Shown piece by piece: positions 652 through 57,410 of a DNA stretch of 64,000 nt. The notes beneath the pieces were generated by a model. It was not told where the DNA came from. It saw nothing but the letters and a program-made list of their open reading frames with translations, and searched no databases. The DNA is taken from positions 2,677,531 through 2,741,530 of the forward strand of contig NZ_CP121472.1 in assembly GCF_036208045.1 (NCBI RefSeq). Direction: 5' to 3'. Numbering within the stretch: position 1 is the first letter of the stretch; every line of letters starts with the position of its first letter. Source of the stretch: Thiorhodovibrio winogradskyi. GTDB lineage: Bacteria; Pseudomonadota; Gammaproteobacteria; Chromatiales; Chromatiaceae. A program made the translations under genes and the position numbers.

Positions 652-1494
652 ATGCGCCCATCATCCCGCGCGCCGGTCCCCACCATCACGCCAGACCTTG
701 CCTTGATCGATGACAGCTGGCCGGCACGGCAGCATTCGCGTTTCGCCCTGGCGCTCGCCATTACCATGGGCGCGGCAGCGGTGGGCGGCGCAACCGCCGC
801 CGACCCGCCGCGACTGCCCAGCTACCAGAGCGACTTGGATGCCTTTCAGGCCGAGCAGGCCAAGCACCCGCCACCCTTCACCGCTATCGAGCGTGACCAG
901 ATGGAAGCCGCCGCTGCCGCCCTGGCGGCCGCCATGCCCGAACCAGGACCGCAGGTTGGCGAGACCGCGCCGGACTTCCAACTGCCCAACGCCAGGGGCG
1001 AGATGGTGCGACTGACGCAACGCCTGCAAGAAGGTCCGGTCGTCCTGACCTTCTATCGCGGCGCCTGGTGTCCCTACTGCAATCTGCAATTGCGCGGACT
1101 CCACCAGAGCCTGCCGCACTTCGAGCGCTATCAGGCACAGCTCATCGCCATTACGCCCCAGCAACCGGATCAGTCCCTCGCGCAGGTCAAGGTGGACGGC
1201 TATCCCTTCGAAATTCTGAGCGACCTCAAGGATGACACCATGCAGGCCTACCGGCTGGCGTTCGAGGTGCCGGAGTCGCTGCGCGCGCTCTACCAAGAGC
1301 GACTCGGGCTGAATCTCGCCGAGTACAACGGCGAGGGACGCTTTATCCTGCCGGTGCCGGCCACCTTCGTGATCGACCAGGAAGGGGTTATCCGTTACGC
1401 GTTCGCCGAGACCGATTACCGCCAGCGCGCCGAGCCGGCGGACATTCTTGCCACATTGGCCAATCTTTCCGACGCACCAGTGGCGAAGCGCTGA
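652..1494 (+). CDS. Exported peroxiredoxin-like (AhpC/TSA family) protein
   Basis: A 280-residue thioredoxin-fold peroxidase-like protein. The AhpC/TSA domain covers about residues 95-270, with the peroxidatic site FYRGAWCPYCNLQL carrying a CPYC pair. An unusually long leader ends in a hydrophobic stretch (FALALAITMGAAAVGGATA), which suggests export, probably to the periplasm. I chose the ATG at 652 because an AAAGAGGAG ribosome site lies just upstream; an in-frame GTG start at 598 would overlap the kinase. The likely role is reduction of peroxides or disulfides outside the cytoplasm. Its stop codon overlaps the ECF-type promoter element of the next gene, so this gene ends exactly where the HvfA transcription unit begins. 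Confidence 0.85.
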   Translation: MRPSSRAPVPTITPDLALIDDSWPARQHSRFALALAITMGAAAVGGATAADPPRLPSYQSDLDAFQAEQAKHPPPFTAIERDQMEAAAAALAAAMPEPGPQVGETAPDFQLPNARGEMVRLTQRLQEGPVVLTFYRGAWCPYCNLQLRGLHQSLPHFERYQAQLIAITPQQPDQSLAQVKVDGYPFEILSDLKDDTMQAYRLAFEVPESLRALYQERLGLNLAEYNGEGRFILPVPATFVIDQEGVIRYAFAETDYRQRAEPADILATLANLSDAPVAKR

Positions 1495-1519
1495 AAGAAA
1501 TCCGGCCCTCGGGCGGTCT
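1492..1519 (+). promoter_or_regulatory. ECF-type promoter element, copy 1 (upstream of HvfA-like gene)
   Basis: TGAAAGA (1492-1498), 13 bases, then GGCGGTCT (1512-1519). The same two boxes with exactly 13 bases between them recur at four other sites in this window, mostly before HvfX, HvfB/HvfC and GMC genes. The element also folds as a weak hairpin (AAAGA/TCTTT base, CCG/CGG upper stem), so it could double as a terminator of the gene upstream. The distance to the HvfA start codon is about 105 bases. Confidence 0.6.
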
Positions 1520-1624
1520 TTACTGATGTGTGTCACTCAGAGCCGCGACACTGTTCGCCGAACCCGACCGACACGCAAGACGATTTTTCCACCATCAGGA
1601 TCCTTGTAGGATCAGGAGTTGACC

Positions 1625-1933
1625 ATGACGAAGCAGACAATGACCACACTCACCTGGGCCGGCGCGGCCCTGGTTGGCGGCCCGCTGACCCTGGGCAGTG
1701 CCCTGGCCGACAGCGGCAATCCCTTTCTCGCCCAACCGCTGAGCAGTGCTCATATCCAGCTGGCGCAAGCCGAGGGCAAATGCGGCGAGGGCAAATGCGG
1801 TGGTCAAGAAGGGACCGAGGCCAAGTGTGGCGCCGACAAGGAGAGCGAAGGCAAGTGCGGCGGCGGCGACAAAGGCGCCGAGGGCAAGGGTGAGGGCAAA
1901 TGCGGGGAGGGCAAATGCGGCGGGGGTAACTGA
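1625..1933 (+). CDS. hvfA: HvfA-type EGKCG-repeat precursor of a copper-binding RiPP
   Basis: A 102-residue exported low-complexity protein. It has a signal peptide (hydrophobic TWAGAALVGGPLTLGSALA), a spacer, then an array of five EGKCG motifs and one EAKCG, carrying all six cysteines of the protein. In Haemophilus and relatives such motifs are modified at Cys by an MNIO enzyme (HvfB, DUF692) with partner HvfC, giving a copper-binding peptide; related bufferins use the same chemistry. Neither maturase is adjacent here: HvfB/HvfC lie at 55.5-57.2 kb and HvfX at 47 kb, yet all share the promoter element found at 1492. ATG 1625 follows AGGAG at 1613-1617; the TTG at 1619 is too close to it. Modification is inferred. 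Confidence 0.85.
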   Translation: MTKQTMTTLTWAGAALVGGPLTLGSALADSGNPFLAQPLSSAHIQLAQAEGKCGEGKCGGQEGTEAKCGADKESEGKCGGGDKGAEGKGEGKCGEGKCGGGN

Positions 1934-1968
1934 CAAGGTGGTCTGATCGCCTAATCGCAAAAAAAGGG

Positions 1969-1986
1969 GGCGGCCCACGGGCCGCC
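1969..1986. terminator. Hairpin terminator after hvfA
   Basis: GGCGGCC / CACG loop / GGCCGCC forms a perfect 7-bp stem directly downstream of the HvfA-like gene. A run of seven A lies on its 5' side, so it would act best on the minus strand; on the plus strand the downstream side is ATTATCC, a weak U-tract. Confidence 0.45.
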
Positions 1987-2141
1987 ATTATCCTGTGTCA
2001 TGTGTGGATCATGTTTGGGCTCAGTCCCGGTCCCGACCCGCTGCCGATGTTCCTGCACGGCGCGCAGCAGCTTGGCCTGCAGCGCTAATGGAAGTCCAAA
2101 TCGCTCGGCTTTCGCTGCGTGAGTGGTTGTCGGGGGTGCTC

Positions 2142-3683
2142 ATGCTAAACTCCCAGGCGACAAAATTGGATGGCGAGATACACGACACCAAGCTTTTGCA
2201 GCCGATTCAATCACTCAGAAATGCTGTGCTGACCTTTGTGCTGCTGCCGCTGCTGGGGCTGTTGGTGGCGCTCGGCATGTTCGGGGTGCGGGAGTTGGAG
2301 AAGCAGATGCACCGACGCGTTCAGGACGATATCGAGCTGATTGCCCGCTCGATTCGTCTGCCCATTGCCGCAGCCATGGTGCGGGGCGATGTCGTGGCGG
2401 TGCGCGAGGCCCTGGACTCGGTGTTCCAGATCGATCAGGTATTTGGCGCCTATGTGTATGACCGCGCGGGTGAGCAAGTCGCCACCAGCGGACCCCGCAG
2501 TCCGCTGCTGGAGCGCCGGCGCGATGCGCGCGCCGTGACGGCGGAGGGCACCCAGGGTAGTGTCGAGGAAAGGCGCGGGCGCGAGGTGTTTTCCTTCTTT
2601 CTGCCGCTGTACGATCCCGCTGGCACTGTGGTCGGACTGCTGCAAGTCACCCGCGATCTGAGCCGTTTCGAAGCCTACCTGACGCGGCTGCGCTGGGTGG
2701 GCGGCACCCTAGTGCTGCTGGTGGCGGTGCTTTTTGTGCTGATTGTGCTGATCGGCCACCATCGCGCCATAGGGCGCCATGTGCGTGCGCTCACCGCCGC
2801 CATGGCGCCCATCGGCACCGGCGAGAGCGGTCTGCGCATACCGGTGCGCGGGCCGGTGGAGCTTAAGCAGCTCGGCGTCGGCATCAACGCCATGATTGAT
2901 CGCTGGGAGACCTCCGAGCGCAATCTGCGCGCTCAGCGCGAACGCGAAGCGCGGCTTGAGCGCGAGCTGCGCCAGTCCGAAAAGCTCGCTGCCGTCGGTC
3001 GTTTGGCCGCGGGGCTCGCGCATGAACTGGGCACGCCGCTTGGCAGTGTCGCCGGGCGAGCGCAACGCGCGTTGCGCGGGCTACCCGCGTCATCGCCGGC
3101 GCGCGCGGAGCTGGCCGCGCAGCGCGAGGAGCTGGATCGCATCTCGCGCATTGTGCGGGAACTGCTGGATTTTGCCCGCCGCAATCCGCTGCACCGGCGC
3201 GCGGTATTGCTGGGGCCGCTGATTGATGGCGTGGTGAGCCGCTGCACCCAGGCGGCACAGCGGCCAGTGGCGGTCGATGTGGCGTTGTCGCCCGAGCTGG
3301 CCGGGCAACGCCTGTATGCCGACCCGTTGCGACTGGAGCAGGCGCTCGGCAATCTGCTCGACAATGCCCTGAACGCCGCTCACGCCCGGGTGTTGATCAG
3401 CGCCGAGCTGGATGACGACGGACTGCGGCTGTGGGTGAGCGACGACGGGCCAGGCATTGCCGAGTCCGCGCGCGAGCGGTTGTTCGAGCCCTTTTTCACC
3501 ACCAAGCCAGTTGGCCAGGGCACCGGGCTTGGGCTGGCGGTGGCACGCGCAGCGATCGCCGAGCATGATGGGCACTTGTCGCTGGAGGCCGGGGGGCTGG
3601 GCGGCGCCTGTTTTCAAATCGCATTACCGCCTGTCATTGTGCATGGCGCACCAGAGGGCCGCGCAGCAGAGACTTCCGGATGA
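2142..3683 (+). CDS. Membrane sensor histidine kinase (ZraS/AtoS-like)
   Basis: A two-transmembrane sensor kinase paired with the NtrC-type regulator that follows. Visible in order: TM1 (FVLLPLLGLLVALGMFGV), a periplasmic sensor loop of about 150 residues, TM2 (LVLLVAVLFVLIVLIG), HAMP, a HisKA box with the phosphorylatable His in GLAHELGTPLGS, then N (NLLDNALNAA), G1 (DDGPGI), F (FEPFFTTK) and G2 (GTGLGLAVA) boxes. The start at 2142 follows GGGGGT; in-frame upstream starts (2088, 1995) have poorer ribosome sites. It overlaps the regulator gene by 4 bases, so the pair is translationally coupled. The ligand is unknown; the architecture resembles envelope or metal-stress sensors. Confidence 0.9.
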   Translation: MLNSQATKLDGEIHDTKLLQPIQSLRNAVLTFVLLPLLGLLVALGMFGVRELEKQMHRRVQDDIELIARSIRLPIAAAMVRGDVVAVREALDSVFQIDQVFGAYVYDRAGEQVATSGPRSPLLERRRDARAVTAEGTQGSVEERRGREVFSFFLPLYDPAGTVVGLLQVTRDLSRFEAYLTRLRWVGGTLVLLVAVLFVLIVLIGHHRAIGRHVRALTAAMAPIGTGESGLRIPVRGPVELKQLGVGINAMIDRWETSERNLRAQREREARLERELRQSEKLAAVGRLAAGLAHELGTPLGSVAGRAQRALRGLPASSPARAELAAQREELDRISRIVRELLDFARRNPLHRRAVLLGPLIDGVVSRCTQAAQRPVAVDVALSPELAGQRLYADPLRLEQALGNLLDNALNAAHARVLISAELDDDGLRLWVSDDGPGIAESARERLFEPFFTTKPVGQGTGLGLAVARAAIAEHDGHLSLEAGGLGGACFQIALPPVIVHGAPEGRAAETSG

Positions 3684-5083
3684 CAAACGCCGAGACAGCC
3701 GCCAACAACACCGGTCAGGTCGCCAGCATCCTGGTGGTCGAGGACGATCACGGCTACCGCCAACTGCTGATCGACGAGCTGGCGGACGCGGGCTATCGCG
3801 CGCTGGGCGTGGCCGATGCCGAGGCCGCTCGCGCCGTCCTGACGTCCGCGTCCTTTGCCCTGGTGCTGTGCGATCTGCGCCTGCCCGGCGCCGATGGCCT
3901 GGCGGTGTTGCAGGCCAGTCGCGCCTGTCGACCCCAGCCCGGGTTCATCATGGTGACCGGCTTTGGCACCATCGACCAAGCCGTCGCGGCGCTCAAGGCC
4001 GGGGCTGACGACTTTCTCACCAAGCCATTGGATTTGGAACATCTGCGCCTGACGGTGGCGCGGGTGCTCGATCGGCGCCAATTACAGGTGGAAGTGGCGC
4101 GCTATCGGGAGCTGCTGGGGGCGCGGGACTTCCACGGCATGCTCGGCAAAAGTCCCGCCATGCTGAAGCTCTTTGAGCTGATCCGCCGCATCGCGCCGTC
4201 GCACAGCAGCGTGCTCATCACCGGCGAGTCCGGCACCGGAAAGGAACTGGTTGCGCGCGCCCTGCATCAAGAGAGTACGCGCGCCGAGGCGCCTTTCGTG
4301 GCGCTCAATTGCGCCGGCATTCCCGAAACCCTGCTGGAATCCGAATTGTTCGGCCATGCCGCCGGCGCCTTCAGCGGCGCGCGCGCGGGGCGGCGCGGGC
4401 TGTTTTTGGAAGCCGACGGCGGCACGCTGTTTCTCGATGAAATCGCCGAGATGCCACCGGCCATGCAGACCAAACTGCTGCGCCTGCTGCAAGACGGCCA
4501 AGTGCGCCCGGTCGGCGCCAATCAGGAAATCGCCGCCGATGTGCGCATTCTCGCCGCCACCCACCAGAACCCGAGCGAGCGTATTGCCGCTGGCGAGCTA
4601 CGCCAGGATCTGTTCTACCGGCTGGAGACCTTTCGCCTGCATGTCCCGCCGCTGCGCGAACGCGGCGAGGACATCGCTCATCTCTTGCGCCATTTCCTCG
4701 GCCTGCATGCGCGCGCCGGCACGGCGCCTGAGTTCGCGCCCGAGGCCTGGCGCGCGCTGCTCGACTACGCCTTTCCCGGCAATGTGCGCGAGCTGGGCAG
4801 TCTGGTCGAGCGCCTGGTCACCCTGGCCGCCGGCGCGCGGATTGAATTCCATGACCTGCCCGAGCGCGTGCGCCAGGCGTCACCGACCGCGGCGGATGCC
4901 ACATCGCCCGCGGCAGGCGCCCGAGAGGAAGACTGGCGCACCCTTGCCGAGGTCGAGGCCAGCCATATTCGCGCGGTACTCGACTGGACCGGCGGTAACA
5001 AGCAGCGGGCCGCGCGCATTCTGGGTATCGGGCGCAAGACGCTCTATCGCAAACTCGGTGAACGGGGTCCGGATGACCCGTAG
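3680..5083 (+). CDS. Sigma54-dependent NtrC-family response regulator
   Basis: 467 residues with three domains: a receiver (about 14-130; acidic pair VEDDH, phospho-Asp in LCDLRLPGADG, Lys in LTKPLD), an AAA+ sigma54 activation domain (Walker A GESGTGKE, Walker B GGTLFLDEI), and a Fis-type helix-turn-helix at the end (NKQRAARILGIGRKTLYRKL). The sigma54-contacting loop reads GAFSGA instead of the usual GAFTGA, a conservative T-to-S change that should still work. It is cotranscribed with the kinase upstream. A strong -24 half-site lies about 120 bases downstream (5202), before the DUF4168 gene, making the secreted DUF4168/BON genes its likely targets. Confidence 0.93.
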   Translation: MTNAETAANNTGQVASILVVEDDHGYRQLLIDELADAGYRALGVADAEAARAVLTSASFALVLCDLRLPGADGLAVLQASRACRPQPGFIMVTGFGTIDQAVAALKAGADDFLTKPLDLEHLRLTVARVLDRRQLQVEVARYRELLGARDFHGMLGKSPAMLKLFELIRRIAPSHSSVLITGESGTGKELVARALHQESTRAEAPFVALNCAGIPETLLESELFGHAAGAFSGARAGRRGLFLEADGGTLFLDEIAEMPPAMQTKLLRLLQDGQVRPVGANQEIAADVRILAATHQNPSERIAAGELRQDLFYRLETFRLHVPPLRERGEDIAHLLRHFLGLHARAGTAPEFAPEAWRALLDYAFPGNVRELGSLVERLVTLAAGARIEFHDLPERVRQASPTAADATSPAAGAREEDWRTLAEVEASHIRAVLDWTGGNKQRAARILGIGRKTLYRKLGERGPDDP

Positions 5084-5201
5084 CGGAATGCCCCATGTGT
5101 CGAAATGATCCGCTTTGGGCGCTGGATGGGACCGCCGGGGAGGCGGCAAAATTGATCCTAGTGGTCTGTTATAAAAAGACAAATCATGCCGTCTTGGCAG
5201 T

Positions 5202-5217
5202 TTGGCACGATCCCTGA
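5202..5217 (+). promoter_or_regulatory. Candidate sigma54 promoter upstream of DUF4168 gene
   Basis: TTGGCACG-ATCC-CTGA matches the sigma54 consensus TTGGCACG-N4-TTGC perfectly in the -24 box and at two of four bases in the -12 box, with correct spacing. It lies 49 bases before the DUF4168 start codon and just after an NtrC-type regulator gene. A TGCC-GTCTT-GGCA palindrome 5' of it could bind the activator. Confidence 0.45.
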
Positions 5218-5265
5218 TTGTCTTGGGGCACCTTTCGCCAAACTGACCTATAAGGAGGTCTTATC

Positions 5266-5685: not shown

Positions 5686-5698
5686 TGCCTTGAGCGCG

Positions 5699-43021: not shown

Positions 43022-44527
43022 CTAGGACGGTGAATCGGACTCGGTCATCCCTGTTTTTCCCGACCAGCGCAGCCGGTATTTTTCGATCTTCCGATCCAGC
43101 GCCGGGCGGGAAATGCCGAGGATCTCGCAGGCACGGCCTTTGTGGCCATGGGTGAAGTCCAGCACCCGCTGGACATGCTCGGCTTCCAGCTCGGCCAGTG
43201 ATTTCAGCGCCACGGATTTAGCCGCCACGGATTCCGGCAGTCGCTGTGGCGTATCCGCGCCTATATCCAATCCGGCATCCAAACCGGCACCCAATCCAGC
43301 ATGCGACCTCGCCCCCGACCGGACCAGGCCGCGATCATCCGCCCGTCCCGTCGGCGCAGGCCAATCAAACATTTCCGCCGTGATGAGCCCATGGCGGGCG
43401 CGCAGCATGGCCTGGGTGAGCATATTCTCAAGCTCGCGCACATTGCCGGGCCAGTCATGGCCCAGCAGCGCGGCGCGCGCATCCTCGGCCAATGGCACCC
43501 GTGGGCGTTGCAGCCGCGTGGCCAGGCGCTCCAGTAGCCCCTCGGCCAACAGCGGAATATCCTCGCGCCGTTCGCGCAAGGGCGGCACCTGGATGCGCAC
43601 CACTTCGAGACGATACAGCAAATCCTCGCGAAAGCACCCGGCGGCCGCCTTGGCACGCAGATCGCGGTTGGTGGCGGCGATCAGGCGGGCATTGGTGGCG
43701 ATGGACGAGCTACCGCCGACGCGCTCGAACACCCGTTCCTGCAGGGCGCGCAACAACTTGGCCTGCAGCGCCGGCGCCAGTTCGCCGATTTCATCGAGAA
43801 ACAGGGTGCCGTCCTGTGCCTGCTCAAACTTGCCGACCTTGCGCGTGGTGGCGCCGGTGAAGGCGCCCTTCTCATGCCCGAACAGCTCGCTTTCCAACAA
43901 GGTATCGACAATGGCGGCGCAGTTGACGGCGACGAAGGGACCGTCGCGCCCGCTGTGTTGGTGGATCAGACGCGCCACCACCTCCTTGCCGGTGCGGGAC
44001 TCGCCGCTGATCAGCACCGACACACCGCTGCGCGCGCACAGGCCGATACCCTTGCTGACCTCCAGCATGGCCGGGCTGCGGCCGATCAGATCCCGAGCTA
44101 GCCCTGGTGGCGACGCTTCAGCCACGGAACCCGGCTCGGCGGCTTGTGCCTCTCGCGCCTGGGCGCGCTGGCGCAGCAGCCGCTCGACTGTCTCGGTCAG
44201 CGCCGCCGCGCGCACGGGTTTATGCACAAAGTCCGCCGCGCCGCGTTGAATAGCGTCGATGGCCAGCTCCAGATCATGCTGGGCGGTCATCATCAGGATA
44301 GGACGCTCGGCATCCACCGCCAGCAGCGCCTCGATCAGCTCGCTGCCCTTGGCATCCGGCAGGCATTGATCGAGCAGAATGAGATAACAGGGCTGGGAGC
44401 GCGCCAGTGCCAGTCCCTCCTGTCCGTTGGCGGCGCCCAGCACCGCGTAGCCCGCTTCCTCGAAATGCAGGCGGAGCATTTCATGCAGCGCGGGGTCGTC
44501 CTCGATCAGCAGCAGGCGGTTGGGCAT
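43022..44527 (-). CDS. Sigma54-dependent response regulator (orphan in window)
   Basis: 501 residues: a receiver (about 4-118; IEDDP, phospho-Asp in ILLDQCLPDAKG, VHKPVRA), an AAA+ domain (ELFGHEKGAFTGA loop, Walker B DGTLFLDEIGEL, Arg finger region REDLLYRLEVVRIQVPPLRERREDIP) and a Fis HTH (HKGRACEILGISRPALDRKIEKYRL). Walker A reads GESRTGKE, with Arg in place of the usual Gly. Between the AAA+ and HTH parts lies a Gly/Asp-rich tandem (GLGAGLDAGLDIG). No kinase gene is adjacent, so its partner is elsewhere. Confidence 0.9.
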   Translation of the reverse strand: MPNRLLLIEDDPALHEMLRLHFEEAGYAVLGAANGQEGLALARSQPCYLILLDQCLPDAKGSELIEALLAVDAERPILMMTAQHDLELAIDAIQRGAADFVHKPVRAAALTETVERLLRQRAQAREAQAAEPGSVAEASPPGLARDLIGRSPAMLEVSKGIGLCARSGVSVLISGESRTGKEVVARLIHQHSGRDGPFVAVNCAAIVDTLLESELFGHEKGAFTGATTRKVGKFEQAQDGTLFLDEIGELAPALQAKLLRALQERVFERVGGSSSIATNARLIAATNRDLRAKAAAGCFREDLLYRLEVVRIQVPPLRERREDIPLLAEGLLERLATRLQRPRVPLAEDARAALLGHDWPGNVRELENMLTQAMLRARHGLITAEMFDWPAPTGRADDRGLVRSGARSHAGLGAGLDAGLDIGADTPQRLPESVAAKSVALKSLAELEAEHVQRVLDFTHGHKGRACEILGISRPALDRKIEKYRLRWSGKTGMTESDSPS

Positions 44528-44537: not shown

Positions 44538-45173
44538 TTACCAGCGCAACAGCCATGGACCCATCAGCGCGCCTAGGCCGCCGGCCAGGGCGATGCCCAG
44601 ACTGTACCAGAGGGCCACGAAAGCCGCCGAGAGTTCGATGCACGACAGGGCATAGGCCATGGCGCCGACGGCCCCGGCCAGCAGCCCGGCCGCCAAACCA
44701 GCCGCGCGTGCTTGGGTCGGAGCCAGACCGCGCAGCGCCCAGAGCGCGCCGGCCAGGGTGGGCAGGGACAACAGGAGCACATTGACCGGACAGTGCGCCC
44801 AGGAGTGCCCCAGCAACGCGGCCAGGCGCTCGGAGGCGGGCGCGGCCAGCAACGTCGTCAGCCCGAGCAGAGCCATCAGGATGACAACGGCGACGATACT
44901 GATCACAGGCCCGCCGGTGCGCGCCACCGGTCGCGCCAGTCGCGTGGTGAGCCAGAGCGCGCCGCTGGCCAGTCCGCCGGCATAGGCGAGCTTGATCCAG
45001 GGGGCCGGCTCGGCCCACAGGCTGGCCGGGATCGGGCCGAGCAGCACCAGGGTCGCGGCGATGCTGGCCAGCCATCCAAAGGGCACGACCGCGCCGATGC
45101 GCCGGGCCGGGAGCGCACGCGGCGCGGGACCGGCCTCGGTGGCGAGCAGATCGATTAAGTGGCTGGTTTTCAT
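44538..45173 (-). CDS. nrsF: NrsF-type anti-sigma membrane protein (DUF1109)
   Basis: 211 residues, six membrane helices (WLASIAATLVLLGPIPASLW, VISIVAVVILMALLGLTTLLAA, VNVLLLSLPTLAGALWALRGLAP and others). The DUF1109 hallmarks are two cysteines in HCPVNVLLLS and SCIELSAAF. In Caulobacter, NrsF holds the ECF factor SigF inactive and releases it on chromate, cadmium or oxidative stress through its cysteines. It overlaps sigF by 4 bases. Confidence 0.9.
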   Translation of the reverse strand: MKTSHLIDLLATEAGPAPRALPARRIGAVVPFGWLASIAATLVLLGPIPASLWAEPAPWIKLAYAGGLASGALWLTTRLARPVARTGGPVISIVAVVILMALLGLTTLLAAPASERLAALLGHSWAHCPVNVLLLSLPTLAGALWALRGLAPTQARAAGLAAGLLAGAVGAMAYALSCIELSAAFVALWYSLGIALAGGLGALMGPWLLRW

Positions 45174-45751
45174 GGGGTCTTCCTCACAAGATTCGAGAGT
45201 CGTTTCAGTCCGCGGTGCACCCGCACCTTGAGTGCCGCGACCGAGATGCCGCTGCGAAGGGAGGCCTCGTCCAGGGTCAAGCCCTCCAGCTTGGTCAGGG
45301 TGATCGCCTCGCGCTGGGCTTGCGGCAGCCTGCCAAGCAGGGTTGCCAGATCGCGCTGCACGGGGAATTCCTCCTCGACGGTTGTCAGCGTCCCTTCGGG
45401 GAGATCATCCAACCCCAGATGACGCGCGTCGCGGCGACCGCGCCGGCGCCACAGGTCAATCAGCTTATGCCGGGCGATGGCGAGCATCCAGCGGCTGACC
45501 GGCACCTTGGGATCGTAGGTGCCGCGTTGCAGGTGAATCGCCAGCAGCGTCTCCTGGAGCAAATCCTCGACCTCGTCCGGCAGCCCTTGCAGGCACCGGC
45601 GAAACCAGCCGCGCAGGCGCTTGGCGATCTGCTCCAGCGCTTGCCGATAAGCGGCCTCATCGCCGGCTTGCCCGCGATCCCACAACGGCCGCAGGGCGGC
45701 TTCGAAGGCATCGAGCGCATTGGCGGGGCTGTCGGCTGGGTGCTTGGGCAT
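45170..45751 (-). CDS. sigF: ECF sigma factor (SigF type)
   Basis: 193 residues: region 2 (DEVEDLLQETLLAIHLQRGTYDPKVPVSRWMLAIARHKLIDLWRRRGRR) and region 4 (LPQAQREAITLTKLEGLTLDEASLRSGISVAALKVRVHRGLKRL). Coupled to nrsF. I start at 45751 (MPKHPADS) because a promoter of the SigF type, GTAACC-N16-CGAC, spans 45769-45794 on the minus strand and would put transcription start near 45761. This indicates autoregulation. A matching divergent promoter drives the secreted protein and DoxX genes. Confidence 0.92.
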   Translation of the reverse strand: MPKHPADSPANALDAFEAALRPLWDRGQAGDEAAYRQALEQIAKRLRGWFRRCLQGLPDEVEDLLQETLLAIHLQRGTYDPKVPVSRWMLAIARHKLIDLWRRRGRRDARHLGLDDLPEGTLTTVEEEFPVQRDLATLLGRLPQAQREAITLTKLEGLTLDEASLRSGISVAALKVRVHRGLKRLSNLVRKTP

Positions 45752-45768
45752 GTCTTTCGATGAAGGAA

Positions 45769-45794
45769 GTCGTTGGCGCGCCATCAAAGGTTAC
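45769..45794 (-). promoter_or_regulatory. SigF-type promoter for sigF-nrsF
   Basis: On the minus strand: GTAACC (45794-45789), 16 bases, CGAC (45772-45769). Agrees with the GTAACC-N16-CGAA type promoter known for Caulobacter SigF, and with the second copy 44 bases away on the other strand. Confidence 0.65.
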
Positions 45795-45837
45795 AAGGCG
45801 CGCGACAAGCGGTGGACATCTTTTTTCGACCCGCCCT

Positions 45838-45863
45838 GTAACCCTTCGCGCTCTGCCAGCGAC
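45838..45863 (+). promoter_or_regulatory. SigF-type promoter for secreted-protein/DoxX genes
   Basis: GTAACC (45838-45843), 16 bases, CGAC (45860-45863). Same boxes and spacing as the sigF promoter; about 90 bases before the small secreted-protein gene. Confidence 0.65.
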
Positions 45864-45955
45864 TCGGTTAGTGAGGGCGCGATGCCGAGGCGGATCATCC
45901 GCGACCGCGGCACGCGACCCGACATCTGATCAACCAAAGAACGCTGGAGTTTCTC

Positions 45956-46243
45956 ATGAACAAAATCCTCATCACCACCGCCGCTGTCATGCTCACCACC
46001 TCCGTGCAGGCCGCCGACAGCCTGCGACAGTTCACCCGTGGCAATCCGGACAGTGACCACCACGTCGGGTTCTTCCAGACCACGGCGCCGGCCTCCTCCG
46101 GTAGCGCAACGGCTTTGGATCACTATCAAGGCCTCGCCCAGGGCAACCCGGATTTGCTGAGCCTTGGCCAGGGTCGCTCGCCAACGCATGAACGCCCGGA
46201 CATTTACGGGGTTTTCGGCGGCAGTCCTGATCTGGCCTATTGA
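45956..46243 (+). CDS. Small secreted protein with GNPD repeats
   Basis: A 95-residue exported protein (signal peptide ILITTAAVMLTTSVQAA). The mature part carries three related motifs (RGNPDSD, QGNPDLLS, GGSPDLA) and no cysteine. I do not recognise a named family. It is the first gene behind a SigF-type promoter, so it is expected to be a main stress-induced product, followed by a strong hairpin and DoxX. It lacks the Cys motifs of a bufferin precursor. Confidence 0.75.
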   Translation: MNKILITTAAVMLTTSVQAADSLRQFTRGNPDSDHHVGFFQTTAPASSGSATALDHYQGLAQGNPDLLSLGQGRSPTHERPDIYGVFGGSPDLAY

Positions 46244-46289
46244 TCGGATCATTGATCTCATCGCAAGGCAACTTCAGACCCGTATCACT

Positions 46290-46322
46290 CTTCATCGGGC
46301 GGTCGCGCGCCGCCCGATGAAG
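46290..46322. terminator. Strong hairpin between secreted protein and DoxX genes
   Basis: CTTCATCGGGCGG / TCGCGCG / CCGCCCGATGAAG is a perfect 13-bp stem. With no T-run it may be a partial terminator that lowers DoxX expression relative to the secreted protein. Confidence 0.6.
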
Positions 46323-46378
46323 GGCGGGCTTAACAGATCGCACTGAATACCCATTTTATCCGACCCAAGGAGATCATC

Positions 46379-46816
46379 ATGGCAACAACTCTCTCGACAA
46401 CTTCCAACTTAACACCCGCGCTGCGATTCGCGGACTTGGCGCCACATGCTCATTGGTTGCTGCGAATCGGCTTCGCCTCGGTGTTTCTGTTTCATGGTAT
46501 CGGCAAGCTGATGGCGCCGACGCAATTTGCCGACATGATGGGACTGGCTTTGCCGGTTGCACTTGCCGTTGCCGTCGCTGAGGTAGCCGGTGGTCTGGGA
46601 CTGCTCGCCGGCGCCATTCTGCGCCGGGATTGGATCACACGCCTGGGTGCGCTGGCGACGGTTCCGGTGCTCATCGGCGCCATTTCGATGGTGCACTGGG
46701 GCCAGTGGAGCTTTGTGGCTACTGCAAGCCATCCCATGGGAGGGATGGAGTTTCAGGTCAGCTTGCTGTTGATGGCGCTCTATTTTGTTGTTCGCGGCAA
46801 CACCGATGCACGCTGA
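46379..46816 (+). CDS. DoxX-family membrane protein
   Basis: 145 residues, four helices, DoxX signature LLRIGFASVFLFHGIGKLMAPTQFADMMGLALPVALAVAVAEVAGGLGLLAGAI and a His-containing later helix (SMVHWGQWSF). DoxX proteins are recurrent in MNIO/bufferin operons, where their job (perhaps quinone-linked redox) is not settled. It lies downstream of the SigF-type promoter. The ATG follows AAGGAG. Confidence 0.88.
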   Translation: MATTLSTTSNLTPALRFADLAPHAHWLLRIGFASVFLFHGIGKLMAPTQFADMMGLALPVALAVAVAEVAGGLGLLAGAILRRDWITRLGALATVPVLIGAISMVHWGQWSFVATASHPMGGMEFQVSLLLMALYFVVRGNTDAR

Positions 46817-47084
46817 TCGGTCAGGCTGACCAGGACTGACCAAGCCTGTTGGCACAGTGTCTTGACTTGCCTTTCTCCCCAGGCGGGCCCCTTCAGGGCT
46901 CACCTTCGATCAATCTGATCATTTCTCCGCCAGATGATTATGCGTGCGTGGGTTTTGCAGTCCGCCAGTCTGATCAGCACGCTGATCCCTCGGCGCTCGC
47001 GTGCCAGACCGAGGCGGAATACGACATCGTCAAGACGCATTCGAGCCCGCGCCCCTCGCCCCTTCTTCTCTCATATCCGTTCCC

Positions 47085-47672
47085 CTAGCGCCGCGCGATC
47101 CAGAAATCCAGGCTCAGATAGCGCCCGGCGCCGATGAAGAAGAGCACCAGCAGCATGATGAAATAAGTGGCGGCAAACTCAATGCCGTTGTTCAGCACCA
47201 CCAAGCTGCCGTTCTCGGTCAGCCACTGATAATGGCCGTGCTCGCGCAGGATGTCCTTGGCCCGATCCAGCCGTTCAATCGCGCCGATGGTGCGCTCGGT
47301 GGCGAACATTGAGCCGCTGCCTTCGGCGATGGCCAGCCAGCCGTTTTGCCAGTGCACGGTGACGGCGGCGACCATCATGGTCACCATCAGCGGCGCCGAG
47401 ATCCAGCGCACGCCAAGGCCGATGACCAGCAGGATGGCGCCCAAGGTCTCGGTCCCGGAGGCGAGGAAAGCCATGACGGTTGGAAAGGGCATGCCCAGCC
47501 CCCAGTCCGGGTTGCCGAACCAGGCCACGGTATCCTCGAAGTTGGCGAACTTCTTGGTGCCGGCCATCCAGAAGACGGGTGCGAGGTACAGGCGCAAGGC
47601 CAGCGGGCCGAGAAAATCGAGCGCGCGGGTGGTATCGAGCAGGTCTTGCAGGCGTCGGGCCATGGTCAGCAT
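47085..47672 (-). CDS. hvfX: HvfX-type DoxX protein of copper-RiPP systems
   Basis: 195 residues, four main helices. It has the longer DoxX form linked to HvfA/B/C systems: LALRLYLAPVFWMAGTKKFANFEDTVAWFGNPDWGLGMPFPTVMAFLASGTETLGAILLVIGLGVRWISAPLMVTMMVAAVTVHWQNGWLAIA, then an extra-membrane insert (ATERTIGAIERLDRAKDILREHGHYQWLTENG) and LNNGIEFAATYFIMLLVLFF. No hvfA, hvfB or hvfC is adjacent, but its upstream region carries the shared element (CGAAAGA-N13-GCCGGTCT). An accessory maturation or membrane redox role is inferred from family context. Confidence 0.85.
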   Translation of the reverse strand: MLTMARRLQDLLDTTRALDFLGPLALRLYLAPVFWMAGTKKFANFEDTVAWFGNPDWGLGMPFPTVMAFLASGTETLGAILLVIGLGVRWISAPLMVTMMVAAVTVHWQNGWLAIAEGSGSMFATERTIGAIERLDRAKDILREHGHYQWLTENGSLVVLNNGIEFAATYFIMLLVLFFIGAGRYLSLDFWIARR

Positions 47673-47724
47673 GAGGACTCTCCCTTAGATGTTTGGGTGA
47701 TCACTTTGTTTTGTTAATCTGGGA

Positions 47725-47752
47725 AGACCGGCTCGGACGGCTGTTTCTTTCG
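47725..47752 (-). promoter_or_regulatory. ECF-type promoter element, copy 2 (upstream of hvfX)
   Basis: On the minus strand: CGAAAGA (47752-47746), 13 bases, GCCGGTCT (47732-47725). Two bases differ from the other copies; the spacer is the same. Back to back with copy 3. Confidence 0.55.
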
Positions 47753-47768
47753 ACGGACTGAATCCAGC

Positions 47769-47796
47769 TGAAAGATTCCGCGGATGCTGGCGGTCT
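47769..47796 (+). promoter_or_regulatory. ECF-type promoter element, copy 3 (upstream of GMC operon)
   Basis: TGAAAGA (47769-47775), 13 bases, GGCGGTCT (47789-47796), 51 bases before the subunit-3-like gene. Similarity to copy 5 extends downstream (TTTG...AAGCCT...CAA.CCGC). Confidence 0.6.
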
Positions 47797-47846
47797 TTGT
47801 CCGCAAGCCTGGTCAACCGCAAGCGCCCAAAAAGAGAGGCCACCCC

Positions 47847-48479
47847 ATGATTCGACGGGCTCCACCCACGGAGTCATTGGCTCCAGTCGCGGCCACCCGC
47901 GCGGAACTACACGCCTGGCACAATGCGCTCCTCGACCGCCGCGCCTTTCTCGCCCGCTGCGCTGGGGTGACGGTCGCCGGGCTGTTTGCGCCAATGCTGG
48001 CTGAAGCCACGATTGCGGAAGCCGATCAACCCGCTAAAACACTGAGCGAAAATGAGCGCATGATGCTGATCGACGCCGTGCAGCAGCATCTGTTCCCCTC
48101 CGAATCCGAAGCCCCCGGCGCGCGCGAGATCAACGCCCTGCCCTTCCTGCGCTTCGTGCTGAAAGATGCCAAGACCGACCCCGACGAGCCGGCCTTCATC
48201 CTGAATGGCGCCGGCTGGTTGGAGGACCTGAGCCAGCAACGCACCAGCCAGTCCTTCCTCGCGCTCGATAGCGCCGCGCGCGAGTCGCTGTTGCGCGAGA
48301 CCGCCGCCAGCGAGGCCGGCGAGAATTGGCTGTCCACCCTGCTGCTGTATCTGATGGAAGCCCTGCTGACCGACCCAGCCTATGGCGGCAATCCTGACGG
48401 CATTGGCTGGCGCTGGTTGGAGCATATCCCCGGCTATCCGCGCCCGGATGCCGCGACCATCTACCCGAGGCTGCCGTGA
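47847..48479 (+). CDS. Gluconate 2-dehydrogenase subunit 3 family protein (Tat-exported)
   Basis: 210 residues. The N-terminus carries a twin-arginine signal (LLDRRAFLARCAGVTVAGLFAPM). The mature part fits the subunit-3 family: LSENERMMLIDAVQQHLFPSESEAPGAREINALPFLRFVL and a late LLTDPAYGGNPDGIGWRWLEHIPGYPRP. Such small subunits carry a GMC oxidoreductase partner across the membrane. It overlaps the GMC gene by 4 bases and lies behind copy 3 of the ECF-type element. Confidence 0.9.
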   Translation: MIRRAPPTESLAPVAATRAELHAWHNALLDRRAFLARCAGVTVAGLFAPMLAEATIAEADQPAKTLSENERMMLIDAVQQHLFPSESEAPGAREINALPFLRFVLKDAKTDPDEPAFILNGAGWLEDLSQQRTSQSFLALDSAARESLLRETAASEAGENWLSTLLLYLMEALLTDPAYGGNPDGIGWRWLEHIPGYPRPDAATIYPRLP

Positions 48480-50179
48480 TGACCGCAAGCAACACCGACA
48501 CCGATTGCGATGTCTGCATCGTCGGCAGCGGCGCCGGCGGCGCGCCCGTGGCCTGGCGGCTAGCCAAGGCCGGTCAATCCGTCATCGTACTGGAGAAAGG
48601 CCCCTGGCTGACAGACCAGCACTTTCGCAAGGATGAACTGGCCTGCTGCCGGCGTGCGGTCTACACCCCCGAGAAGCGCCTGGAGCCCCATGTGGTCGAG
48701 GATCGCGATGCCGATGGCGCCTGGGTGGCCAAGTCCACCGCCGAGTCCGGCTGGGATTTCTGGAACGGCAACCTGGTCGGCGGTTCCAGCAATCTGATGA
48801 GCGGCTTTTTTCATCGGCTCAAGCCGGTGGATTTTCGCCAACTCGACGAACTTGGCCCAATCGCGGGCGCCAACCGTGCCAACTGGCCGATCAGCTATGA
48901 CGATTTGGAACCCTATTACGACCAGGTTGAGCCTTTGGTCGGCATTTCTGGCGCCTTGGCCAAGCATCCAAACATCGAACCGCGCTCCAGCGCCGATTTT
49001 CCCTATCCACCGACACTGGAACATCCGGTGTCGGCCTGGATCGACGAGGCCTGCGAACGCCTCGGCTATCACGCGCTGCGGGTGCCGCGCGCCATTCTCT
49101 CGCGCGGGGCGCTGGGGCGGCGTGCCTGCGAGTACTCCGGTTATTGCGGCAGCTTTGGTTGTTCGAGCGGCGCCAAGGGTGGTGCGCGCGCGGCCTGGCT
49201 GACCCCGGCGCTGGCCACCGGACGCTGCGCGATCCGCCCGCGCGCCCAGGTGCTGCGGTTGTTGAGTGATGCGCGGGGCCGGGTGACCACCGCCGAATAC
49301 GCCGATGCCGAGGGCAAGGTCCGACAAATCACTGCCAAGCGTTTTGTGGTGGCTTGCCAGGCGGTGGAGACCAGCCGCCTGTTGCTCAACTCCCCGGGGC
49401 CGAAGTTTCCCCAGGGTCTGGCCAACAACTCCGGTCAGGTCGGGCGCAACCTGCTGTTCTCCGCTGGCGGCTCCGGCTCGGGCGATTTGGAGTACGCCGC
49501 CCTGGGCGCGGAGCGCGCGGCGGCACTCAAGACCATGGGACCCTTCGTCAATCGCGCCCTGGATGACTGGTATCTAATCGAGGACAAGGGCTTCGCGGGC
49601 GCGGGGAACGAGCGCCGGCACAAAGGCGGCATTGTCGAGTTCCTGCTCGCCCATCCCAATCCCACCGGTCTGGCCAACCGTGCCAAGTGGCGCGACGGCG
49701 AGTTGGTCTGGGGCTTGCCACTGAAGCGCCGCTTGGAACAGTGGTTTCGCACCGACCGCACCCTGCGTTTCGAGGTGTTCTGCGACTGGCTGCCAACCGA
49801 TGATTGCTTCGTCAGCCTGGACCCCAAGGTCAAAGACCGCTGGGGTCAACCGGTGGCGCGCATCCGCATCGGCCATCACCCCCATGATCTGCAAGTCGGG
49901 CGCTATCTGGCCGACAAAGCCGAGCGGGTCCTGAAGGAACTGGGCGCGGCGCGGGTGCGCTCCAGCATTAGCGGCGCCCCGCCGCCCAATCTGATGGCCG
50001 GCGGCTGCCGCTTCGGGACTGATCCCAAGACCTCGGTGCTGGACGCCGACTGTCGCGCCCATGAGGTCGAGAATCTCTTCGTCACCGACGGCAGCTTCAT
50101 GCCCACCGGCGGCAGCGTGCCCTATACCTGGACCATCTATGCCAATGCGCTGCGGGTGGCGGAGGGGATGTTGGGATGA
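48476..50179 (+). CDS. GMC-family FAD oxidoreductase
   Basis: 567 residues. FAD-binding N-terminus DCDVCIVGSGAGGAPVAWRLAKAGQSVIVLEKG, then the GMC layout with NLVGGSSNLMSGFF and C-terminal GGCRFGTDPKTSVLDADCRAHEVENLFVTDGSFMPTGGSVPYTWTIYANALRVAEG. It would oxidise a polyol, sugar acid or similar alcohol and pass electrons on. It has no signal of its own and is probably exported with the Tat-bearing small subunit. No cytochrome c subunit follows; a DUF2721 membrane protein does. The substrate is unknown. Confidence 0.92.
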   Translation: MMTASNTDTDCDVCIVGSGAGGAPVAWRLAKAGQSVIVLEKGPWLTDQHFRKDELACCRRAVYTPEKRLEPHVVEDRDADGAWVAKSTAESGWDFWNGNLVGGSSNLMSGFFHRLKPVDFRQLDELGPIAGANRANWPISYDDLEPYYDQVEPLVGISGALAKHPNIEPRSSADFPYPPTLEHPVSAWIDEACERLGYHALRVPRAILSRGALGRRACEYSGYCGSFGCSSGAKGGARAAWLTPALATGRCAIRPRAQVLRLLSDARGRVTTAEYADAEGKVRQITAKRFVVACQAVETSRLLLNSPGPKFPQGLANNSGQVGRNLLFSAGGSGSGDLEYAALGAERAAALKTMGPFVNRALDDWYLIEDKGFAGAGNERRHKGGIVEFLLAHPNPTGLANRAKWRDGELVWGLPLKRRLEQWFRTDRTLRFEVFCDWLPTDDCFVSLDPKVKDRWGQPVARIRIGHHPHDLQVGRYLADKAERVLKELGAARVRSSISGAPPPNLMAGGCRFGTDPKTSVLDADCRAHEVENLFVTDGSFMPTGGSVPYTWTIYANALRVAEGMLG

Positions 50180-50891: not shown

Positions 50892-51081
50892 TTAACGGAT
50901 AAACCAGGTGTCTTCCAGACACAAGCGCAGGCCCATGCGGGCGCGATGCAGGATGACCCAGCCCCCAACTGGGACATCGGCAGCTCGCGCTGGCGGATGC
51001 GCAAGGCATCAAAGATTTTGCGCTTGAGAATGGAAAACACCCAGGTCTTGAGACTGGCGCGTTTCAGGTCTTGTGGATCTA
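50892..51081 (-). pseudogene. ECF sigma factor remnant
   Basis: Encodes part of sigma region 2 (DPQDLKRASLKTWVFSILKRKIFDALRIRQRELP), and in another frame the normal C-terminal end (ILHRARMGLRLCLEDTWFIR, stop). Region 4 and the N-terminus are missing, so it is an internally deleted gene. Followed by its zinc-finger anti-sigma relic. It is downstream of the operon controlled by the TGAAAGA element and might be the lost cognate sigma. Confidence 0.7.
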
Positions 51082-52548: not shown

Positions 52549-52698
52549 GACATTGCGGCACTGCCGATCAGGCGCCACCGTTGCCGGGCGGAGGACGCGC
52601 TCGCGATTCCTGATCCCCAACGGAACCGACCCCTGTCATTGCAGGGAATCGGCGCGCATACCACCCCAGCCGTCACAGGACCATTCGGAGACGCCCTC

Positions 52699-54144: not shown

Positions 54145-54261
54145 CGGGCCGAGGTCATGGCGGAGGTGATACCAGTGCCTGATCATCGACCATCGAAAGA
54201 GTCGCTGTTCGCCGAATCTTGTCACGCATGGAATTTCTTAACCACAACCGGAGCGTCTTCA

Positions 54262-54753: not shown

Positions 54754-54879
54754 GGCAACGGCGAGTCCGTGCGCGGATGGCCAGCGCGGCTGTCCGCCCG
54801 GTCTCGCGGCCAGGCATCCAAGTCTCGACTGCCGCCGGTGCCGAGCCAGCGGTGCGTGGTTCATGTCGGGCGCTCCGGG

Positions 54880-55550
54880 TCAGCGCTCATCATTCAGATC
54901 ATCACGGGTGCGCCGAAAGCGCAGATGCGCGATGTCGGGCGGGAAGAACATGGCCCAGTTCCATTCCAGGTAGACACGGATCTTGCGCGCCAGGGTCGGG
55001 ATATAGAGCAGGTAGAACCCGCGCCAGAGCAGCCAGGGAATGAATCCGGAGATGTTGACCCCCTGGATGCGCGCCACCGCGCGGTTGTGACCAATGGCTG
55101 TCATCAGCCCCTTGGGCCGATATCCAAAGGCCTGGGTGGCCTCCCGGCGCGCGACCCGGGCGATATTGGCCGCCAGTTGCGGACCCTGATGCAACGCGAA
55201 CTGCGCCGTGGGCGGACAACTCGCCCCATCGGTGCGGCGATTAGGCACCGCGGCACAGTCGCCGATGGCCCAGACGCCGGCCAAGCCCGGCACTGACATA
55301 TCGGAGGCGACTCGCAGCCGCCCGCGCACCTTCTCGACCGGCAGCGCCTCGATCAGCGGATGCGTGCGACTGCCAATGGTGCAGACAAGGGTCCCGGCCT
55401 CGATGCGCCGTCCATCCTTGAGGGTAATCCCGCAGGCATCGACGCCGTGCGCCGGCATGTCGAGCAACACCTCCACACCGCCATGCCGGGGACCAGGATG
55501 CGCGGGGCCTGGTCACGATGGTCTTGTGGCGCGTGCATTCGTTTAGGCAT
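54880..55550 (-). pseudogene. Type II NADH dehydrogenase-like gene with large internal deletion
   Basis: Starts [20 protein letters not shown], the usual beginning before the first Rossmann fold, then jumps directly and out of frame to the second half (VEVLLDMPAHGVDACGITLKDGRRIEAGTLVCTIGSRTHPLIEALPVE...VPGLAGVWAIGDCAAVPN) and a normal C-terminus (FIPWLLWRGFYLLYIPTLARKIRVYLEWNWAMFFPPDIAHL). About 170-200 residues, including both nucleotide folds, are gone at ~55485. It overlaps the end of the HvfC gene, so it was the third gene of that operon. Confidence 0.85.
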
Positions 55551-56352
55551 GCATCCCTCCCGTGCGCGCGGTTCCGAGCAGAATCTGGCGCTCGCGCAAA
55601 TCGGTCAGCAGACTGTCACCGGCGGCGAGCAGTTGATCAGGCCGCGCGAGCCCCAATTCCTCGCCGATCATGACCAGCACCTGCCGGCCACTGCGGTGAT
55701 GTCCCTCGCGCAGCAATTCCAGCAGGCGTGCCGTGACGGCGTTGACCTGCAGGAAGGCGACCCGCTCCCGGCGGTCGCGGTAAGCGACCAGATGGGTCGG
55801 TTCCCGAGGCGGGGTGCGGGGCGGATCGGCGGGATCGATGGCATGCACCGCGAACCGATAGGTCAAACTCCAGGCTAGCGGTGAGACCACGGGCGCGCCT
55901 TGCAGCAGATCCCCATTGGGATCGGCCAGCGCCGGCCCGGCATCCAGCTCGCTGAACAGCAGCGCGGTCTCGACCCATTCGTAATGGGCCAGTTCGAACA
56001 GATACGGCGGATCGTCAGGCACATCCGCTCGGCTCGTGCTGAGATAGGCCAGCCACTCCTGCCCGATCTCCGGAAACAGTGGCGTGCTCGCGCGATGTTC
56101 GCGCAGAAAACCGCGCACCAGCGCCTGCCAGCGGATCGAGCCGAGACAGGCGTGCAGGACCGGGAACCCTTGCCCGAGCAGCGAGGAGAGGTTGTTGAAC
56201 ACCAGTTCACGGTAGATGCGCAGGCGCCGGGCCTCAATGCCCGGCGGCGGGGCTTGGCCGTCGGGATCGCGCAGATGCGCGGCCAAGGTCCGTTGCACCT
56301 GCATGAAGTCCGGCTCGGCGCCGGCGTGGCTTTGATAAGCGGAATCAGGCAT
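55543..56352 (-). CDS. hvfC: HvfC-type maturation partner (DUF2063)
   Basis: 269 residues. The DUF2063 N-terminal domain (about 15-110: [15 protein letters not shown]...[30 protein letters not shown]...[23 protein letters not shown]) and a C-terminal domain ([19 protein letters not shown]...[18 protein letters not shown]). In bufferin, Hvf and related pathways this protein presents the precursor peptide to the MNIO enzyme. Its start lies within the end of hvfB (8-base overlap), so the two are made together. No precursor gene is in this operon; the only candidate in the window is the EGKCG protein at 1625. Confidence 0.9.
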
Positions 56353-57220
56353 GCGCGTATCCCCCAGTCATGGCCGCGACCTGGCCAGGCGGTATGCCAG
56401 CACGCGCCTGACAGGCGCTGATTTGGCGAACCTCGGCGGTCAGGGTCGCGAGCGGCGGGAGATTGAAGTCGCGCTCGAGCAAGGTCGGGAAGACACCAAA
56501 GCGCGCATAGGCCTCCTCGAGCAACGCCCAGACGGGCGCGATGACATCGGCGCCATGGGTGTCGATCCGCAGATCGGGCGCCTCCTCGTAGTGACCGGCG
56601 ATATGGCCGTAGGCGATGCGCCGCGCGGGCAGTCCAGCGAGGAAACCCGCCGGGTCATACCCATGATTGATGCCGTTGACAAAGACATTGTTGACATCGA
56701 GCAGCAGGTCGCAATCGGCTTCCTCGAGCACGGCTGTGATGAAGTCAAGCTCGCTCATCGTCTGCCCGGGCGCGGCGTAGTAAGAGACGTTCTCCAGCGC
56801 GATACGCCGCTCCAGGATGTCCTGCACCTGGCGCACGCGCGCCGCGACATGGCGCACCGCCTCCGGGGTGAAGGGAATCGGCAGCAGATCGTAGAGGTGA
56901 CCATCGTCGCTGCAATAGCTTAGGTGCTCGCTATAAAGATCAATCCGATGGCGGTCGAGAAAGACCTTTAGCCGGCGCAGAAACGCGGTATCCAATGGCT
57001 CCGGTCCGCCAATCGACAACGACAGGCCGTGGCAGACAAAGGGCGTGCGCTCGGTCATACTCGCCAACCAGCGCCCCCAGCGCCCGCCGACGCCCATCCA
57101 GTTCTCCGGCGCGATTTCCCAGAAATCGATCTCCGGCGGCGTTTGATCGAGGACATCACCCATGAAGGCGCGCCTGAGACCGAGGCCAGCACCGGTGATC
57201 GGATCGTATGGATCGTTCAT
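56345..57220 (-). CDS. hvfB: HvfB-type MNIO enzyme (DUF692, multinuclear iron oxygenase)
   Basis: 291 residues of TIM-barrel type. The multinuclear iron ligands of the family can be read off: [73 protein letters not shown] and TLLERDF. MNIO enzymes oxidise cysteine in RiPP precursors to thiooxazole or oxazolone/thioamide groups that bind copper. The ATG 57220 follows GGAG; an in-frame ATG 39 bases earlier is less likely. The leader contains copy 4 of the ECF-type element and no small Cys-rich gene, so the enzyme must act on a distant precursor. Confidence 0.92.
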
Positions 57221-57382
57221 GACGGACTCCGCGTGGTTCAGATTCCTGAGCGCTGTCGCCAAAGTCATTGGCAACGCAGGGCTCTTGGCCGGACACTTTT
57301 GTCTCACCTACTGGCCCTCTCACCTGCTGGCTGGCTGGCCAGCCAGATGAATAGGCGCCCCCCGGCTGCGTCTCCCTGTCAG

Positions 57383-57410
57383 AGACCGCCAGACCCTCAC
57401 GGATCTTTCA
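57383..57410 (-). promoter_or_regulatory. ECF-type promoter element, copy 4 (upstream of hvfB-hvfC)
   Basis: On the minus strand: TGAAAGA (57410-57404), 13 bases, GGCGGTCT (57390-57383). Predicted leader of about 150 bases to hvfB, containing a CTGGCTGGCCAGCCAG palindrome. Confidence 0.6.

Follow-up and report, generated by a model that had tools for sequence, protein, structure and literature searches.

A dispersed HvfA/HvfB/HvfC/HvfX-type gene set in Thiorhodovibrio winogradskyi, probably held in one regulon by a common promoter element

Pairs of the HvfB–HvfC type convert the cysteines of EGKCG motifs to 5-thiooxazoles, and the product binds copper (PMC13097082). HvfABC/captophorin clusters (oxazolin, fontiphorin) bring together an EGKCG precursor, the MNIO enzyme HvfB, the DUF2063 partner HvfC and a DoxX protein (PMC13097082, PMC12452194). 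Two looser arrangements are already published: orphan bufferin precursors that lie away from MNIO genes, for which modification by an enzyme of another locus was suggested (PMC12452194), and control of several unlinked MNIO operons by one extracytoplasmic function (ECF) sigma factor in the Caulobacter sigma-F/NrsF regulon, where sigma-F reads GTAACC-N16-CGAA before DUF2282–DUF692–DUF2063–DoxX operons (PMC3511200). Sigma factor and NrsF genes are reported in Buf1, not Buf2, clusters (PMC12452194). Here we describe a 64,000-nucleotide stretch of the T. winogradskyi genome (the window; C1:2677531-2741530 of a 5.48-Mb genome on a single contig) with genes for the same four components, hvfA, hvfB, hvfC and hvfX. 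Unlike those of captophorin clusters, they are spread over 55 kb at three separate places, and at each of these stands a copy of an element of the form TGAAANA-N15-[CG]GGTCT; the genome also contains a second operon. We consider it probable that the window holds a copper-peptide system of the HvfA/HvfB/HvfC/HvfX type whose operon has fragmented and whose pieces are co-regulated by a common ECF-type promoter.

The original prediction, made from the window alone, had placed a complete but scattered hvf set here, and family searches uphold it. HvfB, HvfC and HvfX exceed the cut-offs of their NCBIfam equivalogs (Table 1), and the precursor exceeds that of NF050137, which describes a repeated KCGExKCG motif (30.1 bits, cut-off 19.5); its cysteines lie in five EGKC motifs and one EAKC motif. 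The full-length HvfA equivalog NF050188 (cut-off 95 bits) is reached neither by this precursor (33.9 bits) nor by that of the second operon (47.1 bits). With the start of HvfB placed at MNDPYDP, eight short motifs, chosen by eye, are kept. Its closest named relatives come from Halochromatium and Lamprobacter. Alignment of the HvfA leaders was unreliable (26/44 with G066 and 16/47 with the near relative G136). Approximately 53 kb separate hvfA from hvfB, and the precursor does not adjoin hvfB as it would in an HvfABC operon. By analogy, these parts fit the thiooxazole and copper chemistry of HvfB–HvfC.

An element with a 13-base spacer had been predicted before each part, and the pattern matches exactly at these and two further window sites, with 13 bases in all five (Table 1). 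Genome-wide, TGAAAGA-N13-GGCGGTCT occurs six times perfectly and never with exactly one mismatch; the reversed control has no match, and 0.007–0.009 perfect matches are expected. The corresponding Poisson P of ~1e-16 to 1e-15 is overstated because the motif was picked after some sites had already been seen. Less stringent scans are noisier: at up to three mismatches the window has 11 sites (shuffled sequences average 6.0, and 3 of 100 reach 11), and a looser pattern gives 10 genomic sites with at most one mismatch versus 3 in the reversed control. Five of the six perfect sites fall within 61 kb, between C1:2676509 and 2736583, and the sixth (C1:4617178) lies in a near-identical copy of the SigF–NrsF, DoxX and GMC block. 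Every perfect site has an open reading frame (ORF) downstream (6/6), as does the hvfX variant; the genes behind the six are a PAS kinase–peroxiredoxin unit, hvfA, a Glc2DH3–GMC unit, hvfB, a ZAS-like ORF and a second GMC unit. The sites at 47769, 59026, C1:2676509 (just outside the window) and C1:4617178 and the weaker one at 57443 had been missed by the original prediction.

The element also occurs before hvfA in relatives. Among the best 80 of 547 confirmed related HvfB loci, 70 carry an EGKCG-type precursor by our motif test. None of the 80 loci contains the strict pattern; scored with a matrix, eight of the 70 hvfA loci reach at least 17 bits, each at a single site (L015, L018 and L022 of Halochromatium; L016, L017 and L023 of Lamprobacter; L021 of Thiohalocapsa; L024, a gammaproteobacterial metagenome-assembled genome), and most of the other 62 show nothing convincing. 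The form before hvfA in these relatives is TGAAA[GCT]A-N13-NN[CG]GGTCTYTA-like. Ten of 24 hvfA loci covered by a second scan score at least 20 bits; six of the ten, in genomes G142, G081, G127, G138 and G102, had no part in building the matrix and offer more independent support, because the matrix derives partly from the g16 relatives. Genomes G107, G131 and G132 score 10–15 bits, and eleven loci lower still, including this genome's second operon, G028, G076, G023, G015 and one of two G138 precursors. The site before the window hvfA has the TGAAANA-N15-[CG]GGTCT form of the relatives' regulon described below. Like elements before hvfA in Halochromatium, Lamprobacter and Thiocapsa-like genomes point to a conserved regulation, in keeping with the common control predicted for the window. 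In a sample of 146 family genomes, the strict pattern with at most one mismatch occurs in 79, mostly once or twice each, which is background; two perfect sites are listed for the 145 other genomes taken together (G058, G129). Genome G081 has five one-mismatch sites, all within 29 kb of a single contig and interspersed with homologues of the PAS kinase, the NDH-2-like gene, Lactamase_B_2 and the kinase at 1995. One G081 site (L133, G081:C39, 5181) stands ~0.4 kb upstream of an MNIO gene that is less closely related (G081:C39:13616-14437, 39% identical to HvfB). A palindromic operator was rejected, the AAAGA/TCTTT symmetry being lost in some relatives.

Split systems occur elsewhere too. Of 30 flanked HvfB loci, six have no adjoining precursor: that of the window and those of G138, G023, G102, G047 (in which HvfB lies 107 bases from the contig end) and G018. 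HvfB and the precursors are separated by 23 kb and 1.7 Mb in G138; in G023 they sit on opposite sides of the chromosome, and in G102 on different contigs. The element stands at three of the four orphan precursors of G138 and G102, and in these two genomes degenerate element-like sites, identified by pattern and by eye and in one case with a 12-base spacer, precede HvfB and the HvfX unit. A tree built from 38 HvfB sequences places the window copy with those of Halochromatium and Lamprobacter (89/95, just below the level that the tool marks with a star) and the second HvfB with G028, G076 and G004 (100/98). The Thiocapsa copies form a separate group (99/93), and in the sister of this group (97/89) the precursor adjoins hvfB; the split therefore probably arose at least twice.

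On sequence grounds, relatives most likely read the element with a dedicated ECF sigma factor that is paired with a DUF3379-like anti-sigma factor. When 18 relatives were searched for sigma-70 region 2, one class, here termed ECF-B, came up in ten (G066, G098, G136, G015, G138, G102, G142, G081, G127 and G018); the ECF of L256 (G031) belongs to a different class. The ECF-B gene lies between HvfX and HvfB in G138 and G102. In G066 and G098, an element divergent to ECF-B points at an 85–120-amino-acid homologue of the window's ZAS-like ORF; the G066 homologue resembles DUF3379 at its N terminus (2.6e-7, 30.6 bits), and the window ORF resembles the N-terminal part of DUF3379 (1.5e-4, 21.6 bits), each below the cut-off of 33.2 bits. 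In G142, the gene behind the element next to ECF-B encodes a homologue of the small protein found at 45956 in the window, and by eye the same holds in G127. Across 16 genomes, eight have both ECF-B and an element before hvfA, six have neither and one plus one are discordant (Fisher P = 0.009, uncorrected for kinship). This table omits G018 (no precursor found), G047 (contig edge) and the host genome; G138 was scored element-positive although one of its two precursors has the element, and G107 (12.8 bits) element-negative. Genome G118 has the element and no ECF-B found in an assembly that is 89% complete. In the seven genomes scored ECF-B-negative, the 18 sigma stretches of other than RpoD or RpoS size gave RpoE, RpoH or FliA as best matches. 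A sigma-54-like TGGCAY-N5-TGCW sequence lies just before the ECF gene in six of nine scanned ECF-B loci, with no such match at L233, L238 and L260; the window has no match to the sigma-54 pattern used. Inverted repeats upstream of ECF-B genes were noted by eye alone, so an NtrC step is a guess. The most comparable arrangement is that of a Catenovulum plasmid (L279), on which the gene for an ECF 44% identical to an ECF-B protein is followed by a DUF3379 gene; unlike in that pair, the DUF3379-like ORF of G066 and G098 is a short one that runs divergently to the sigma gene and has the element in front of it. A close ECF-B on a plasmid was rejected, the best plasmid match being 46.7%.

In the arrangement that we favour, hvfA, hvfX and the hvfB–hvfC pair would each stand behind a copy of the ECF-type promoter TGAAANA-N15-[CG]GGTCT and, since this promoter is common to this branch of the family and there precedes intact hvfABC operons, would have stayed in one regulon. 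Stress would switch the regulon on, HvfB–HvfC would oxidize the HvfA cysteines to thiooxazoles in the cytoplasm, and the modified peptide would be exported and bind copper. We infer promoter function, co-induction, maturation in trans by the window HvfB–HvfC and copper binding. More tentatively, a hitherto undescribed cascade is conceivable for the EGKCG copper-peptide genes of purple sulfur bacteria, in which an NtrC-type regulator with sigma-54 would activate an ECF sigma factor acting at the element before hvfA, hvfB, hvfX and its own DUF3379-like anti-sigma gene; in T. winogradskyi, the regulon would have outlived its sigma factor and be read by another, the promoter element alone holding the dispersed pathway together.

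Several observations weigh against a dispersed but working system under one promoter. The genome holds two MNIO and two DUF2063 genes, and a second precursor lies directly before the second hvfB–hvfC (~C1:3136800-3139038, 0.4 Mb from the window set; the MNIO/DUF2063 matches at C1:3137298-3138480 come right after this EGKCG precursor), with no element at this operon in the genome pattern scan (matrix score −3.5). The second HvfB–HvfC could therefore also mature the window precursor. The original prediction, that the distant enzyme modifies the distant precursor in trans, had itself named a second precursor beside another hvfB as counting against it, and is weakened. The second operon does not undo the split of the window set, and maturation in trans is plausible by analogy with Thiocapsa-like genomes. 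The same-genus genomes G028 and G076 have no and one one-mismatch element site, respectively, and no split system. The split genome G023 and one G138 orphan precursor are without the element, and the second-scan matrix was partly trained on sites from the genomes that it scored. Finally, ECF-B was found among none of the 7 Sigma70_r2 and 14 Sigma70_r4_2 matches of this genome, and the correlation of sigma factor and element is therefore broken here (with the host genome included, the table reads 8, 2, 1, 6; P = 0.015). The search is a sensitive one because it found the class in ten relatives. Searches by tblastn with ECF-B queries (over 14 stretches of 20 kb each, 280 kb in all, together with the window, L012 and L013) returned SigF alone (E = 2.6e-4 to 0.003; all else E ≥ 0.13), and an earlier one over loci of this genome returned RpoE and SigF and no ECF-B. 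To these points come a long branch of the window HvfB in the 38-protein tree (0.63) and an NDH-2-like gene beside hvfC of which half is gone. Decay of the window locus is therefore possible: the second HvfB–HvfC would mature the hvfA product and the window hvfB–hvfC would be a leftover, an account to which the look of an hvfB-like remnant after the orphan precursors of L235 and L240 (by eye) also lends itself. We regard it as rather improbable, given that the window HvfB, HvfC and HvfX reach their family cut-offs, that HvfB keeps its motifs and that a perfect element precedes hvfB.

Who reads the element bears on the other alternatives. The seven Sigma70_r2 matches are RpoD, RpoS, RpoE, RpoH, FliA and two SigF (named by eye), which leaves RpoE and SigF as the ECF types found, and neither has an own promoter resembling the element. 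RpoE was rejected as reader on account of a GAACTT-type site before rpoE (pattern and eye). SigF, encoded in the window and in a near-identical copy at C1:4615 kb, would make the hvf genes a known sigma-F bufferin regulon with altered promoters: it is one of two ECF types available, each copy has two element sites within ~2 kb, and sigma-F governs unlinked MNIO operons in Caulobacter (PMC3511200). The sites that SigF has of its own are of the GTAACC type, which the element does not resemble, and we therefore rejected it as the obvious reader; both copies carry a divergent GTAACC-N16-CGAC pair, equivalents of which lie beside sigF in G076, of the same genus, and in G023, two genomes in which hvfA is without the element. 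As the GTAACC pattern is unspecific genome-wide (11 matches, 51 in the reversed control), it is their pairing next to sigF that gives these sites weight. Within the window, a search for GTAACC-N15-17-CGA[AC] found it solely between sigF and the divergent small-protein/DoxX unit and not before any hvf gene; this weakens the parallel that the original prediction drew with the ECF control of bufferin operons in other bacteria, which as published is by sigma-F (PMC3511200). A role for SigF at the element thus seems unlikely to us. We give about the same low weight to the element being a site bound by a transcription factor (a response regulator, for example) and not a promoter. A histidine kinase and an NtrC-type regulator adjoin hvfA, an NtrC-type gene adjoins the orphan precursors in L234 and L239, and no matching ECF sigma factor was found in this genome; the element is nevertheless directional, with its spacer fixed at 13 bases and a core that is non-palindromic in several relatives, and in several relatives it has an ECF sigma gene as its neighbour. 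An origin by chance, or as intergenic GC hairpins resembling terminators, would be very improbable: short GC stems are conceivable in some spacers (by eye), but six perfect sites stand against ~0.01 expected, two element pairs sit between divergent genes, and the element precedes hvfA in relatives.

Set beside the published systems, the window resembles the Caulobacter sigma-F regulon in the predicted co-control of unlinked genes by an ECF sigma factor and differs in the motif, in having an EGKCG precursor in place of DUF2282 precursors and in that maturases there lie in the precursor operons (PMC3511200). Orphan bufferin precursors have no common promoter element described in the available text (PMC12452194); the window has one. 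A partial literature search found no paper joining MNIO, sigma factor and promoter motif, none joining DUF692 and Chromatiaceae, and none on DUF3379. In genome mining for ribosomally synthesized and post-translationally modified peptides (RiPPs), a precursor is usually matched to a maturase encoded next to it; our results, with Thiocapsa-like genomes as parallels, suggest that a common promoter element could pair orphan precursors with their enzymes, and they offer a testable class of regulator for EGKCG copper peptides.

Table 1. Features of the window (window coordinates; scores in bits)
Feature	Position	Strand	Remarks
PAS histidine kinase gene, 3′ part	2..607	+	gene start outside window, behind element at C1:2676509
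Peroxiredoxin (AhpC/TSA)	598..1494	+	same direction as, and after, PAS histidine kinase
Element TGAAAGA-N13-GGCGGTCT before hvfA	1492..1519	+	overlaps peroxiredoxin stop codon
hvfA precursor, 102 amino acids	1625..1933	+	signal-peptide-like start (by eye); 6 Cys
NrsF anti-sigma-F	44538..45173	-	
SigF-type ECF sigma factor	45170..45787	-	ATG probably at 45751
Sigma-F-type site GTAACC-N16-CGAC before sigF	45769..45794	-	
Sigma-F-type site GTAACC-N16-CGAC before divergent unit	45838..45863	+	
Small protein	45956..46243	+	signal-peptide-like start (by eye)
Second DoxX protein	46379..46816	+	not HvfX (16.5, cut-off 80)
hvfX, DoxX family	47085..47672	-	NF050144 equivalog, 243.8 (cut-off 80)
Variant element CGAAAGA-N13-GCCGGTCT before hvfX	47725..47752	-	
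Element before Glc2DH3–GMC unit	47769..47796	+	
Gluconate 2-dehydrogenase subunit 3-like	47847..48479	+	
GMC oxidoreductase	48476..50179	+	
NDH-2-like gene	54880..55476	-	C-terminal half alone
hvfC, DUF2063/RiPP recognition element partner	55543..56352	-	NF050145 equivalog, 280.5 (cut-off 142)
hvfB, MNIO maturase	56345..57220	-	NF003818 equivalog, 439.6 (cut-off 360)
Element before hvfB	57383..57410	-	perfect
Weaker element before GH100 invertase	57443..57470	+	2 mismatches
Element before ZAS-like ORF	59026..59053	+	
ZAS-like ORF, 80 amino acids	59098..59340	+	GTG start, HxxxCxxC; putative mini anti-sigma factor

Copies of the NDH-2-like gene in relatives are longer and encode 441–459 amino acids (L133, L135, L136, L253), and in L136 and L253 the gene lies directly 3′ of hvfC. 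The histidine kinase and NtrC-type regulator beside hvfA occupy 1995-5083 of the window; a second NtrC-type regulator, beside nrsF (43022-44527), has its homologue next to the orphan precursors of L234 and L239. At the sigF locus of G076 (L259, 3108-8223), GH100, peroxiredoxin, DoxX and small-protein genes stand in succession behind a GTAACC sigma-F-type site, the divergent unit being followed by the peroxiredoxin and GH100 genes in the same direction; no TGAAA element was found at this locus. The peroxiredoxin and GH100 genes of the window lie behind the TGAAA element or its weak form, versus GTAACC in G076, which suggests rewiring between regulons.

The neighbours of the ZAS-like ORF are, we presume, YaiI-like and DNA polymerase IV-like. 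A second copy of this ORF and its neighbours (window 59-61 kb) lies 46 kb away (L102, C1:2782 kb), without an element found in that locus; a DUF3379 search of the genome gave one match below the cut-off, in this second copy, and the window ORF fell short of its reporting limit. The block at 44538-50179 is likewise duplicated (L013, C1:4610000-4625000), with SigF–NrsF, the small protein, DoxX, the hvfX region and Glc2DH3–GMC; the SigF of the copy, at C1:4.61-4.62 Mb, is 99.5% identical. Of hvfX, a start region and a remnant alone were seen there by eye, and another variant element precedes this start region, which resembles that of the window hvfX. A remnant of another ECF sigma gene lies at 50895-51064 on the reverse strand of the window, short pieces of it being 71–82% identical to an ECF gene of G076 (L258, 6023-6649).

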